A DNA stretch of 64,000 nt, taken from Natrarchaeobaculum sulfurireducens (GTDB lineage: Archaea > Halobacteriota > Halobacteria > Halobacteriales > Natrialbaceae). Of the stretch, positions 24,487 through 29,349 are shown in pieces (position 1 is the stretch's first letter; each line of letters starts with the position of its first letter). The notes beneath the pieces are model-generated. The model made no database searches. It had not been told where the DNA came from and saw only the letters and a program-made list of their open reading frames with translations. The stretch covers positions 1,364,001-1,428,000 of the forward strand of contig NZ_CP024047.1 in the NCBI RefSeq assembly GCF_003430825.1, read 5' to 3'. The position numbers and the translations under genes are program-made.

Positions 24487-26088
24487 TTACGCGCCAGCCC
24501 AGACGTTCGTCGCGGAGACAGAGCCGAACTGGATGTTCTCGTTCTCTTGCATGCTCACCTGTGCCGAGTCAGAGCTGTTGCCGTTCTCGGCGATGGCGAT
24601 CGCAGCCTGCTGCTCGTTGACGTTCTCCTGGTTGATGAACTGAACCTGCTCGAGCTGGGCACTTGCGTGCTGCTCGGGGTCGTTCGTCTGCTGGGCGTCG
24701 TAGTCGTAGGAGATGCCCTCGAGGCCGTCGACGTCGTCGCCACCGACGGTCACGCTCGTGGTCTCGGTGATCATGGCGTTCTCGTACATGTGGGTCGGAC
24801 CGGCGTAGACGTTCAGCGCGTCAGCGAAGCCAACCTGCGCGTTGAGGTTGGTCTGGTGGGCGAGCTGCACGGCGGTCGCCTCACTTTCGTTCGTCGCGTA
24901 CGCGAAGGCCGTGTTCTGCAGGTTGACGTTCATCTGCTCGGCGCGCTGCTCCTGGCTCACCTCGGAGGTGGCCGACTGGAGCTGTTCGTCGTCGCTCTTC
25001 TTGTGGTGATCCTTGTCGTCTTTGTCCTCGCCGAACTCCTCGACGGTGGTGTCGGTGTCGACGATGTCGGTATTCTCGGCACCGGCAATCGCGACGTTCA
25101 TCCCCTCCATCGAGGTGAGAACGTTCGCCGCGTCGGCGACACCGAGTTGTTCGTTGAGGTTGGTCTGGTCGGTAATCTGAATAGCCGTCGCGACACTGCC
25201 TTCGCCGACTGCGATGGCGACGGCACCGTCCTGTTCGTTGTAGTTCGTCTGGTCGAGTGCCTGACCCTGTGCTACTTCGGCGGTTGCAACCTGGTCGGCA
25301 CCTGGGCTATCGCTGGATTTCGCGTGATCGCCGGTCTTGTCGGCGAACTCTCCGTTGCCCATGTAGACGTTGGTTGCGTTAGCGACGCCCTGTTGCAGGT
25401 TCTGGTTTTCCTGTTGGGACTGCTGGAGGGCAGTCGCTTCGCTTTCGTTTTCGGCGATCGCGAACGCGGTGTTCTGTTCGTTGTAGTTCAGCTGGCCGAC
25501 TTCCTGAACCTGGGTCACGACAGCGTCGGCTTCCTGATCGCCATCGCCGTCACCATCGGCTCCGATGTCGGCTTTATCTCCTTTCTTGTCGGCAACGCCC
25601 CAGCCGTCGAACTGTTGGCCGTCCCCGTTACCGATGAGGACGGTAACGTCACCGACGTTCTCGAACTCGGTCTCGTCGCCCTGGACGTTGTCGCTGGACG
25701 CGTCGGCGAACTGTTCGTTGTCGTTGTACTGACTCGCCTCCTGTACAGCCGTCGCCTCACCGCCGTCGATCGAGATCGACGTGGCGTTACCCTGCTGGTT
25801 GATGTTGACCTGGTCGACGTCCTGGTACTGCGTGACCTCGGCGTCGACCTCGCCACCTGACGCGTGCGATTCTATGTATTCTTCAAGCGACATGTCTTCA
25901 CCGTCCAGATCAGCGCCGAAGACCAGGTACAGCCCCTCGTCGTTCTCGAGCGCTTCGGCCGTACCGTTGGGCACCGCTGGATCCTCGGCAACAGCTGTCG
26001 ATGCGCCGGCACCGAGCATCGCTACGGCCACTATACAAGCCATCAAAACCGTCGTACACTGTGAACGTATCCTCGTCGTGTTGGTCAT
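24487..26088 (-). CDS. secreted curlin-like repeat protein, candidate extracellular fibre subunit
   Basis: 533 residues, very acidic. A Sec-type signal peptide (VLMACIVAVAMLGAGASTAVA, written here only in part: hydrophobic residues 14-33, AVA before ED) leads to a mature chain with five units of about 50 residues. Each unit has two half-repeats of the form Q-x-N-x-N-x-Q (QLNYNEQ, QTNYNEQ, QMNVNLQ, QENVNEQ) spaced 22-25 residues apart and joined by alternating small residues (AFAIAENESEATA), ending in Q-x-G-x-A-x-A-x-NV. Curlin (CsgA) repeats have the same Gln/Asn spacing. Asp/Lys/His-rich linkers separate the units. No anchor is seen. Function inferred: self-assembling surface or biofilm protein. 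Confidence 0.8.
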   Translation of the reverse strand: MTNTTRIRSQCTTVLMACIVAVAMLGAGASTAVAEDPAVPNGTAEALENDEGLYLVFGADLDGEDMSLEEYIESHASGGEVDAEVTQYQDVDQVNINQQGNATSISIDGGEATAVQEASQYNDNEQFADASSDNVQGDETEFENVGDVTVLIGNGDGQQFDGWGVADKKGDKADIGADGDGDGDQEADAVVTQVQEVGQLNYNEQNTAFAIAENESEATALQQSQQENQNLQQGVANATNVYMGNGEFADKTGDHAKSSDSPGADQVATAEVAQGQALDQTNYNEQDGAVAIAVGEGSVATAIQITDQTNLNEQLGVADAANVLTSMEGMNVAIAGAENTDIVDTDTTVEEFGEDKDDKDHHKKSDDEQLQSATSEVSQEQRAEQMNVNLQNTAFAYATNESEATAVQLAHQTNLNAQVGFADALNVYAGPTHMYENAMITETTSVTVGGDDVDGLEGISYDYDAQQTNDPEQHASAQLEQVQFINQENVNEQQAAIAIAENGNSSDSAQVSMQENENIQFGSVSATNVWAGA

Positions 26089-26591
26089 GATTCGTTTGAC
26101 GTAGGCCGTGAGAGTCTTTGTTTCCGTAATCCCACGGCGTGAACCTTCATTTCCCGATGATAGACTTTGTTATCTGTCAGTTGATTCAGCGATGAACTGG
26201 CCTACTCAGCGGAAGACGGCCGTTTATGTCGAGGCTATCAGTTCGCCGAGGTCGCCGAACACTCAGCTGCCGGGCAGACGTATCCGACCGCAGCCCCGGT
26301 GTGATGGGTGAAAGCACCTGTGCTCCCGACGTGCTGTCGATCGGAGAGGGTCCGTCGCAGTGAAGCCGCTGCATCTGGCCGCCACGACACAGATCGAATC
26401 GCGAGCGACTAGCCTGACACCCACCGCCCCTTCTGTGTGGGTCTCGAGAACCGGTCGGTCGGACGGTTGTGTCTCATTTCGGGGACGGAATCCGGTCAGT
26501 AGGGAACGCAAAAACAGTCGGTGCCGATGGTTCCCTGCCAGCGCAGGGAAGTGGGGTCGCCTGTATGCTTCCCCCTACTGGTAGCCTCGGA
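26089..26591. other. divergent intergenic region of the repeat-protein locus
   Basis: About 500 bases between the large repeat-protein gene and the first small paralogue. No gene is supported. A perfect 7-bp hairpin (TTCCCTG, loop CCAGCG, CAGGGAA) lies at 26531-26550, about 40 bp before the TATA box of the first paralogue. This stretch must carry the promoters for both directions. Confidence 0.45.
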
Positions 26592-26821
26592 GTTTTAAGC
26601 AAACCAATCGGATGATTCGCGGTGAAACCGTGGTCCGGGTTCAAGACCGAATCGCTGCTGAGTGGCGACTGGGCAACGCATCACGGCACAGGTCACCGGG
26701 GGCAGAAAACTGACGAGTCGACCCGCTACCACGGGTTCACTCGTTGCGATGGGGCCGACCCTATTAGGAATCTGCTACATTCTCGGACCCGTGCGTGATG
26801 CAGCGCCTAAAGAGCGAACGC
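26592..26821 (+). promoter_or_regulatory. promoter and conserved long leader, copy 1
   Basis: A TATA-like AGTTTTAAG (26591-26599) is followed by about 215 bases shared with the leaders at 27585 and 28654. Conserved blocks include ATCGGATGATTCGC, GTGAAACCGTGGTCCGGGTT, GGGCAACGC and, just before the gene, TGCAGCGCC. The middle 60 bases differ between copies. A leader this long is unusual in a haloarchaeon. Confidence 0.6.
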
Positions 26822-27331
26822 ATGAAACGAACACTCACGATCACGATGGCGGTAGCGTTGATCGGCAGCCTCATGTTCATGGGGTTCGCCGGCACAGCAG
26901 CGGCACAGAACAACAACAACGTCGATAATGGCATCAGCGTCGATGTCGACGCCGACTTCGCCGAGCAAGAGCAGACAGCAGAGACGAACATCGACATCCA
27001 ACAGGAAACCCAGAACGAGCAAGTAGGTGAAGCGACTGCAGAGACGAACGTCCTCGCCGCCGATTTCGGTGGAGCTGGCACCATGGCTGCACCCACAGCC
27101 GCACCAGCTGATAAGAAGGGGGCTGCACCCGCTGTTGCACCCGCAGCCGCTGACGGCGGTGCTACTGCACTCGGCGTCTCCGAAGCAAGCGTTGATCAAA
27201 CGCAGGACCTCGACCAGAGCAACACTGTCGAGATCAGTGACGTGACGACCGAGACCGGCGATAACATCCAGGACGCCAGCGTTGACGTCACCGTCGATAA
27301 CAACAATAACAACAACAATAATAACGACTAG
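26822..27331 (+). CDS. small secreted repeat protein, paralogue 1
   Basis: 169 residues from ATG 26822. The signal peptide MKRTLTITMAVALIGSLMFM continues to GTAAAQ, with likely cleavage after AAA. The mature chain begins NNNNVD, then has ETNIDIQQETQNEQVGEATA (the same Q-x-x-NEQ-x-G-x-A form as the large protein), an Ala/Pro/Lys-rich linker, a second motif SVDQTQDLDQSNTVEISDV, GDNIQDASVDV and a poly-Asn end. In-frame start codons nine residues earlier (MQRLKSER) are possible, but the signal peptide favours this ATG. Head of a three-gene tandem family, each gene with its own promoter. Confidence 0.8.
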   Translation: MKRTLTITMAVALIGSLMFMGFAGTAAAQNNNNVDNGISVDVDADFAEQEQTAETNIDIQQETQNEQVGEATAETNVLAADFGGAGTMAAPTAAPADKKGAAPAVAPAAADGGATALGVSEASVDQTQDLDQSNTVEISDVTTETGDNIQDASVDVTVDNNNNNNNNND

Positions 27332-28607: not shown

Positions 28608-28648
28608 TTGTATGCTCACCAAAACTGCCACAGTTGGCGTTTTAAACA
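28608..28648 (+). promoter_or_regulatory. promoter of paralogue 3 with palindromic operator
   Basis: AACTGCCACAGTT at 28623-28635 and the TATA box TTTTAAAC at 28640-28647 match those of paralogue 2 with the same four-base spacing. Confidence 0.65.
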
Positions 28649-28653
28649 ATCCA

Positions 28654-28866
28654 ATCGGATGATTCGCGGTGAAACCGTGGTCCGGGTTCAAGGTCGAACC
28701 TATACTGGGTAGCGACTGGGCAACGCGTCACGGCACAGGTCACTGGGGGCAGAGAACTGACGGGTCGGCCTCGACGATGGGTCGCCCCGTTTCGACGGGG
28801 GAGTCGGCCCGTTGTCTGCCATATTCTCCATACCAGTGCGTGGTGCAGCGCCTGGAGAACGAACGA
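28654..28866 (+). promoter_or_regulatory. conserved long leader, copy 3
   Basis: Nearly the same blocks as copies 1 and 2 (ATCGGATGATTCGCGGTGAA, CCGTGGTCCGGGTTCAAGG, GGGCAACGCGTCACGGCACA, GGGGGCAGA). The middle holds a GC-rich part (CCCCGTTTCGACGGGG) that can fold. GGAG lies nine bases before the ATG. Confidence 0.6.
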
Positions 28867-29349
28867 ATGAAACGAACACTCACGATCACGATGGCGGTAG
28901 CGTTGATCGGCAGCCTCATGTTCATGGGGTTCGCCGGCACAGCAGCAGCACAGAATAACAACAACGTCGACGAAGTCGAGGAATTCGCTGATATCACCGT
29001 CGACGCTGACTTCGCCGAACAGAACCAGACGGCAGAGACGAACATCAACATCGACCAGAGCAGTCAGAACGAACAGATCGGCGTAGCGAACGCCCAGACG
29101 AACACCCTCGCGGCTAACGACGGAACTGGTAGTGCTGACGCCGCCGGAACCTCCGCCGCGACGGTGAACCAGGTCCAGGAGCACGACCAGAGCAACACGG
29201 TTAACATCGAAGGCGTAACGACCCAGACCGGAGACAACGTTCAGGACGCTAGCATCGACTTCGACTTCGAGGATCTCGACCTGAACGACAACGACAACGA
29301 CAACGACAACGACAACGACAACGACAACGACAACGGCAACAACGACTAA
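28867..29349 (+). CDS. small secreted repeat protein, paralogue 3
   Basis: 160 residues from ATG 28867. Signal peptide and first 20 mature residues match paralogue 2. Then ETNINIDQSSQNEQIGVANA, a short linker (no KKK or long Ala/Pro run), ATVNQVQEHDQSNTVNIEGV, TGDNVQDASIDFDFED and an Asp-Asn tail of eight pairs ending GNND. The most compact of the three. Copies 2 and 3 are closer to each other than to copy 1, so the family grew by tandem duplication, most recently between 2 and 3. Confidence 0.82.
   Translation: MKRTLTITMAVALIGSLMFMGFAGTAAAQNNNNVDEVEEFADITVDADFAEQNQTAETNINIDQSSQNEQIGVANAQTNTLAANDGTGSADAAGTSAATVNQVQEHDQSNTVNIEGVTTQTGDNVQDASIDFDFEDLDLNDNDNDNDNDNDNDNDNGNND
29287..29334 (+). repeat. 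hexanucleotide array (GACAAC)8
   Basis: Eight perfect copies of GACAAC, 48 bp, encoding the Asp-Asn tail of paralogue 3. The paralogue 2 array has twelve. Confidence 0.95.

Follow-up and report, generated by a model that had tools for sequence, protein, structure and literature searches.

A conserved two-type system of secreted glutamine/asparagine-repeat proteins in haloarchaea, a candidate for amyloid-like assembly

The bacterial functional amyloids Fap and curli are the described systems closest to the one considered here. FapC consists of imperfect repeats that each supply one cross-beta layer, with linkers of variable length between them and conserved Asn/Gln hydrogen bonds, and three is the strongly preferred number of repeats (PMC12392863). 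In the portions of the literature consulted, a 2025 review based on a GTDB search for operons of the curli and Fap types names bacterial phyla and leaves archaeal ones unmentioned (PMC12822426), and a 2012 survey refers to a single protein from an archaeon that has curli-like repeats and could be related to those considered here (PMC3521004). The biofilm matrix of the haloarchaeon Haloferax volcanii binds Congo red and thioflavin T and has no established gene; HVO_1403 was put forward for this amyloid by the authors on other grounds (PMC4180959). Here we describe a locus of Natrarchaeobaculum sulfurireducens (family Natrialbaceae), at positions 24,487 to 29,349 of a 64,000-nucleotide stretch of contig NZ_CP024047.1 that was analysed as a whole and is called the window below. 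The locus encodes one large and three small secreted proteins that share a Gln/Asn-rich repeat, and an initial annotation had read it as a candidate curli-like fibre locus. The two-type secreted repeat system is real and conserved, and it is apparently undescribed so far: the family did not appear in the literature searched on archaeal curli-like and amyloid systems, a search whose scope did not extend to subscription papers and preprints.

The repeat unit and the two protein types

The large gene (24487–26088, reverse strand) encodes a secreted protein of 533 residues and was defined by its open reading frame (ORF), homology, repeats, an AlphaFold2 model and searches with the repeat unit. Ten exact copies of the motif Q-x-N-x-N-x-Q are arranged in five pairs (residues 93/120, 199/226, 280/308, 385/412 and 487/514), as compared to a mean of 0.04 and a maximum of 2 in 20,000 composition-preserving shuffles of the mature part. 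The five units with paired motifs that the initial annotation had proposed are hereby borne out; the half-repeat spacing of 22–25 residues that it gave is not, and the distance from motif to motif inside each pair measures 27–28 residues. All five units are encoded on the reverse strand. Unit 1, with two long strands, covers residues 82–133 (25690–25845), unit 2 residues 185–243 (25360–25536), unit 3 residues 266–325 (25114–25293), unit 4 residues 371–430 (24799–24978) and unit 5 residues 473–532 (24493–24672); the first four are placed by motifs, the AlphaFold2 model and the unit search, the fifth by motifs and the model.

Thirty-one units taken from homologues both close and remote align to a consensus of 53 residues, AxVxQxQxVxQxNxNxQxxAxAIAxxGSxATAxQxSxQxNxNxQxGxAxAxN, in which eight Gln/Asn columns are invariant and residues alternate strictly two by two along the strands. 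Around the motif the mean column entropy is 0.23 bits on the Gln/Asn face and 1.04 bits on the opposite face (p=6e-16), a difference that persists when the motif residues themselves are left out (p=9e-8). The Gln/Asn face is made up only of Q, N, A, V, G, S, T, L and I and includes no charged residue, whereas Asp or Glu occupies 21 of 80 residues on the opposite face. To judge from these columns, the pattern is the one expected of a strand that has one side buried and the other facing the solvent. Within the first half of each unit, the parity of the conserved positions shifts between Gln column 17 and Ala column 20, which may mark a bulge or kink. An AlphaFold2 model, based on an alignment of 17 homologues, predicts ten strands of 23–29 residues that form five pairs with turns of 3–5 residues (82–107/111–133, 185–213/217–243, 266–294/299–325, 371–398/403–430 and 473–500/505–532). 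The pLDDT reaches 80–95 at the strand centres and is <50 in the linkers, and the pTM of the whole model is 0.52.

The units are preceded by a predicted Sec-type signal peptide (residues 1–34; 25987–26088, reverse strand; cleavage after AVA), which was read from the sequence and is kept by homologues, and by a conserved N-terminal module, LYLVFGADL...LEEYIESH (residues 45–81; 25846–25956, reverse strand), which emerges from the homologue alignment and is also found in distant homologues of the large protein. A genome search with LYLVFGAD gave no second match. Within the large gene itself, a weaker related copy of the module, VTVLIGNGDGQQFDGWGV, follows unit 1 at about 25560–25680.

A divergent intergenic region of 0.7 kb separates the large gene from three tandem small genes on the forward strand, each supported by ORF, synteny, alignment, family search and hidden Markov models (HMMs). 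They encode small protein 1 (26822–27331; 169 residues counted from MKRT, with C-terminal poly-Asn), small protein 2 (27804–28394; 196 residues) and small protein 3 (28867–29349; 160 residues), the latter two with a C-terminal (DN)n tail. Their nearly identical N-termini resemble signal peptides of the Sec type, in agreement with the initial annotation, which had predicted three secreted products. It had also reported a motif Q-x-x-NEQ-x-G-x-A; the motif exists, but its true form, Q-x-x-x-N-E-Q-x-G-x-A, is one residue longer, and it is followed by a second motif, A-x-V-x-Q-x-Q-x3-Q-x-N.

HMMs of the two half-repeats (half A and half B) were built from the large proteins and run on 40 small proteins and 2000 shuffled controls. 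Half A scored at least 8 bits in 21 of the 40 small proteins and in 1 of the 2000 shuffles, half B in 15 of the 40 and in 3 of the 2000, which upholds the earlier claim that the motifs of small and large proteins are of the same kind: the repeat sequence is shared. At three loci (L026, L027 and L029) the half-repeat scores of small proteins rise up to 25–28 bits, and at a further one (L094) two small genes each encode one complete unit. In the window, all on the forward strand, small protein 1 carries a second-half-type motif at 27002–27043 (6.5 bits, weak alone) and a first-half-type motif at 27185–27223 (9.4 bits), and small protein 2 has the same pair at 27993–28034 (7.1 bits, weak alone) and 28176–28214 (9.0 bits). 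In small protein 3 the second-half-like motif QSSQNEQIGVANA at 29056–29094 was recognised by sequence reading and alignment and was not reported by the HMM; the first-half-type motif follows at 29158–29196 (7.7 bits). The Asp-Asn tails of two of the small genes are encoded by (AACGAC)n hexanucleotide repeats (28313–28377 and 29289–29337), in which slippage is likely to give in-frame length variation.

Distribution and co-occurrence

Of 293 genomes sampled from the order Halobacteriales, 62 encode the large protein. It was found in 50 of the 63 genomes of the window's own family, the remaining matches falling into two other families, and in a separate sample of the phylum it was confined to the window's family. 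Natrialba, Halobiforma, Halopiger, Natrinema, Natrarchaeobius and Halovivax are among the named genera that possess it. A search with the repeat unit itself matched 87 of 392 sampled genomes in this order, which adds one genome from one further family. Exactly five unit matches are present in 64 of these 87 genomes and six to seventeen in the others; the surplus is attributed, on a partial check, to second large genes or to small genes that bear units, and several genomes have 10 unit matches, which is taken to mean two genes. None of the large homologues examined clearly deviates from five units, and even the distant loci encode five pairs of half A and half B, or nearly so. The large homologues of other families (L087–L092) have a twin-arginine-like N-terminus, for example KRRGYLKG, in place of the Sec-type one, which suggests that the export route has been switched.

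The small family was searched separately, in the window's family, and co-occurrence was counted over genomes present in both searches: 41 have both types, one has the large type only (G291), none has the small type only and 12 have neither (table 41, 1; 0, 12; Fisher p=3.8e-11, uncorrected for relatedness). The strict co-occurrence that the initial annotation had named as a check is accordingly found, with the small type in 41 of 42 large-positive and in 0 of 12 large-negative genomes of the family. The two types are also neighbours, since a divergent small gene lies close to the large gene at 43 of 45 loci (a set that includes some genomes fetched twice, and in which L008 was resolved through L095). 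The exceptions are L030, where the small gene is ~27 kb distant, and L016 (G211), where one of two copies of the large gene has an in-frame TGA stop and no adjoining small gene and is probably a decaying paralogue. The number of small genes per locus ranges from one to three or more. At most of the L087–L092 loci, from the more distant families, the few kilobases fetched contained no small gene.

Upstream element and gene neighbourhood

An identical sequence of 22 nucleotides, GAAACCGTGGTCCGGGTTCAAG, stands upstream of small genes 1, 2 and 3 (26624–26645, 27604–27625 and 28671–28692, respectively, forward strand) and holds the imperfect inverted repeat GAAACCG-N5-CGGGTTC; the initial annotation had overlooked it. 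A search of the 3.8-Mb genome that tolerated up to 3 mismatches found it at three places, all of them at the small-gene locus, and the reversed pattern used as a control gave zero matches. The element is not present upstream of the large gene in the window. Relatives keep its core in front of their own small genes, where it is followed by the conserved GGGCAACGCGTCAC and then by a leader that varies in length and extends over well over 100 nucleotides. Haloarchaeal mRNAs are frequently leaderless, and a leader of this size is therefore unusual. Because an Rfam search of the locus returned no match, the element is treated as DNA and not as a known RNA; it would be a dedicated promoter or operator of the small genes.

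Genes for LarC, a Cdc48-type AAA ATPase and an EamA-like transporter, named by sequence reading, flank the small genes at 13–15 of 16 loci, and this neighbourhood is old. On the other side of the large gene lies a glycan-type island (8173–24077) of low G+C content, down to 45%, in which sequence reading recognises a nucleotidyltransferase, glycosyltransferases, an epimerase and an ABC exporter; a transposase-like gene at 20370–21365 splits it. The initial annotation had suggested that this island could modify or anchor the fibre. The island does adjoin the locus in this genome, but an exporter similar to its polysaccharide-type ABC exporter (22272–24077) is nearby in only some relatives, so that the link is weak and does not belong to the conserved traits of the system.

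Relation to known systems and possible assembly

The initial annotation had argued for curlin from a repeat spacing of about 22 residues, and this argument falls with the measured spacing of 27–28 residues within a unit of 53. Membership in the curlin family is rejected on several further grounds. An hmmscan of the four proteins returned no PF07012, and PF07012 found nothing above cut-off in the window's own genome and 116 others (none at E<=1 in the own genome), while the E. coli control was positive; the matches in other haloarchaea (L047–L064) are weak and below cut-off. Alignment of the unit to the E. coli CsgA/CsgB repeats by hhalign gave a probability of 0.2%, and the half-repeat HMMs did not match CsgA/CsgB. 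The full curlin motif, S-x5-Q-x-G-x-G-N-x-A-x3-Q, occurs zero times in the large protein, which has one minimal Q-x-G-x-x-N at residue 232. CsgG (PF03783) was not found in the own genome, nor is it expected in a host without an outer membrane.

A profile of 17 homologues run against PDB sequences at E<=10 did not match the FapC chain, and Pfam and NCBIfam scans of the four proteins gave no Fap match. Such Pfam, NCBIfam and PDB sequence matches as there were are at chance level, GltJ and similar weak matches of the small proteins are low-complexity artefacts, and a resemblance of AVAIAVGEGSVATA to the YadA head was dropped, P0001 being without a Pfam match at E<=10. Judged by sequence, the unit is a new repeat family, separate from curli and Fap and with no detectable kinship to either.

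Amyloid-like stacking, working in the manner of Fap or curli but with a repeat family of its own, is the mechanism best supported by sequence, model and analogy, and we consider it about as likely to be right as wrong. The large protein would use Sec for its export (the distant homologues a Tat-type signal), and each of its five units would form two long beta strands with a buried ladder of Gln/Asn and Ala opposite an acidic, salt-adapted face. Flexible charged linkers would join the units, which may stack in register as successive cross-beta layers similar to those of FapC. The small proteins, carrying one unit or its halves and driven by their own shared promoter, would add to the stack or seed it, and the result would be a fibre or a sheet of matrix, amyloid-like in either case, on the outer side of the S-layer. 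We infer polymerisation, a fibre and its stacking register, a division of labour between subunits and a function in surface adhesion or biofilm. The fuller proposal, a haloarchaeal functional amyloid unrelated to curli and Fap in which five-layer and one-layer subunits, with two-strand layers and a Gln/Asn/Ala core, assemble in saturated brine without outer-membrane machinery, is tentative, and we rate its chances a little below even.

Several observations weigh against stacking. No accessory gene for secretion or for nucleation came to light. The small proteins of the window give weak matches to the half-repeats, the order of which is swapped, and for this reason their kinship to the large protein in this genome rests on the family as a whole. 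The repeats of the large protein are confidently predicted as beta, and neither helical nor disordered, but a small protein modelled alone has no strands (pLDDT 46) and is predicted to be unstructured. The paired strands of a unit may be arranged as an antiparallel hairpin or else as a stacked beta-arch, two layouts that the model output does not tell apart. Foldseek against the PDB returned only two folds, FapC (9NQD) and CsgA of Pontibacter korlensis (8C50), at insignificant values (E 0.024 and probability 0.08 for the former, E 5.8 for the latter); VIA-align to 8C50 gave a Z of just 3.1 over 97 residues at 3.4 A, and a viral fold library matched unrelated proteins equally weakly, none of them significantly. 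That both PDB folds are bacterial functional amyloids is suggestive, but the fold search is not used as proof.

Next in our ranking comes a secreted, non-polymerising and beta-rich protein of the adhesin or matrix type, whose five beta domains on flexible linkers bind polysaccharide or the S-layer while the small proteins bind or compete; we regard it as possible but somewhat doubtful. It would account for discrete, confidently predicted beta units between low-confidence linkers, and a count fixed at five is easier to reconcile with a molecule of defined make-up than with a polymer of open length. Flat faces rich in Gln and Asn are able to bind glycans, and the glycan island adjoins the locus in this genome. 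A Gln/Asn face that is near-invariant and uncharged in all units nevertheless looks like a packed core and not like a variable binding surface, and the layout of linkers and repeats around such a core resembles that of FapC, which polymerises (PMC12392863).

A low-complexity, largely disordered acidic Gln/Asn-rich coat, providing hydration in the manner of halomucin without a defined structure, is improbable. The low prediction confidence of the linkers and of the entire small protein, the (DN)n and poly-N tails and the highly acidic composition all fit it; the position-specific conservation, strict alternation and invariant columns of 31 units and the confident strands do not. True archaeal curli with a degenerate curlin repeat, ranked last, can draw on the placement of Gln/Asn, the alternating small residues, secretion, the lone minimal motif at residue 232 and the single archaeal protein of the 2012 survey, but is largely refuted at the sequence level by the missing PF07012, CsgA/CsgB, motif and CsgG matches and the different period, and is barely credible.

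If stacking does produce fibres, a cross-beta assembly with a Gln/Asn core would have arisen separately from those of curli and Fap, in saturated salt and in an organism that has no outer membrane. The putative amyloid of H. volcanii, a dye-binding matrix material, is haloarchaeal as well. In the literature searched, the dye-stained amyloid of haloarchaeal biofilms has no established gene, and the locus offers a concrete, testable gene set, part of it in described, named species. The sheath protein of Methanospirillum hungatei is also archaeal, secreted and beta-structured, and the sheath assembles extracellularly and is amyloid-like (PMC10593813); it was not among the Foldseek returns and is set apart by its description, which is of tubular hoops built from a beta-arch protein and has no five-unit Gln/Asn ladder.

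With CsgA/CsgB of curli the system shares a secreted repeat protein with alternating Gln/Asn and predicted beta structure, and two related subunit types encoded together. It differs in that curli has contiguous repeats of 22 residues, as opposed to a 53-residue unit with linkers and a period of 27 here, and in that this family lacks Gly-rich turns. The parallels to FapC/FapB (9NQD) include imperfect repeats of ~50 residues, variable flexible linkers, a conserved Asn/Gln core network, secretion, a repeat number that is fixed (with a preference for 3 in FapC and with 5 in our system), a related second subunit beside the major one, roles that are proposed for our proteins, and the position of FapC as top PDB fold match, though an insignificant one. 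The FapC motif is a different one, gasGN-h-G-h-N-h-aaG-x-gNqQN, and its five short strands form a Greek key, in contrast to the two long strands predicted for this unit; the host is single-membraned, and no Fap operon turned up, with no fap profile run. By analogy, FapC is the closest working model for the system.

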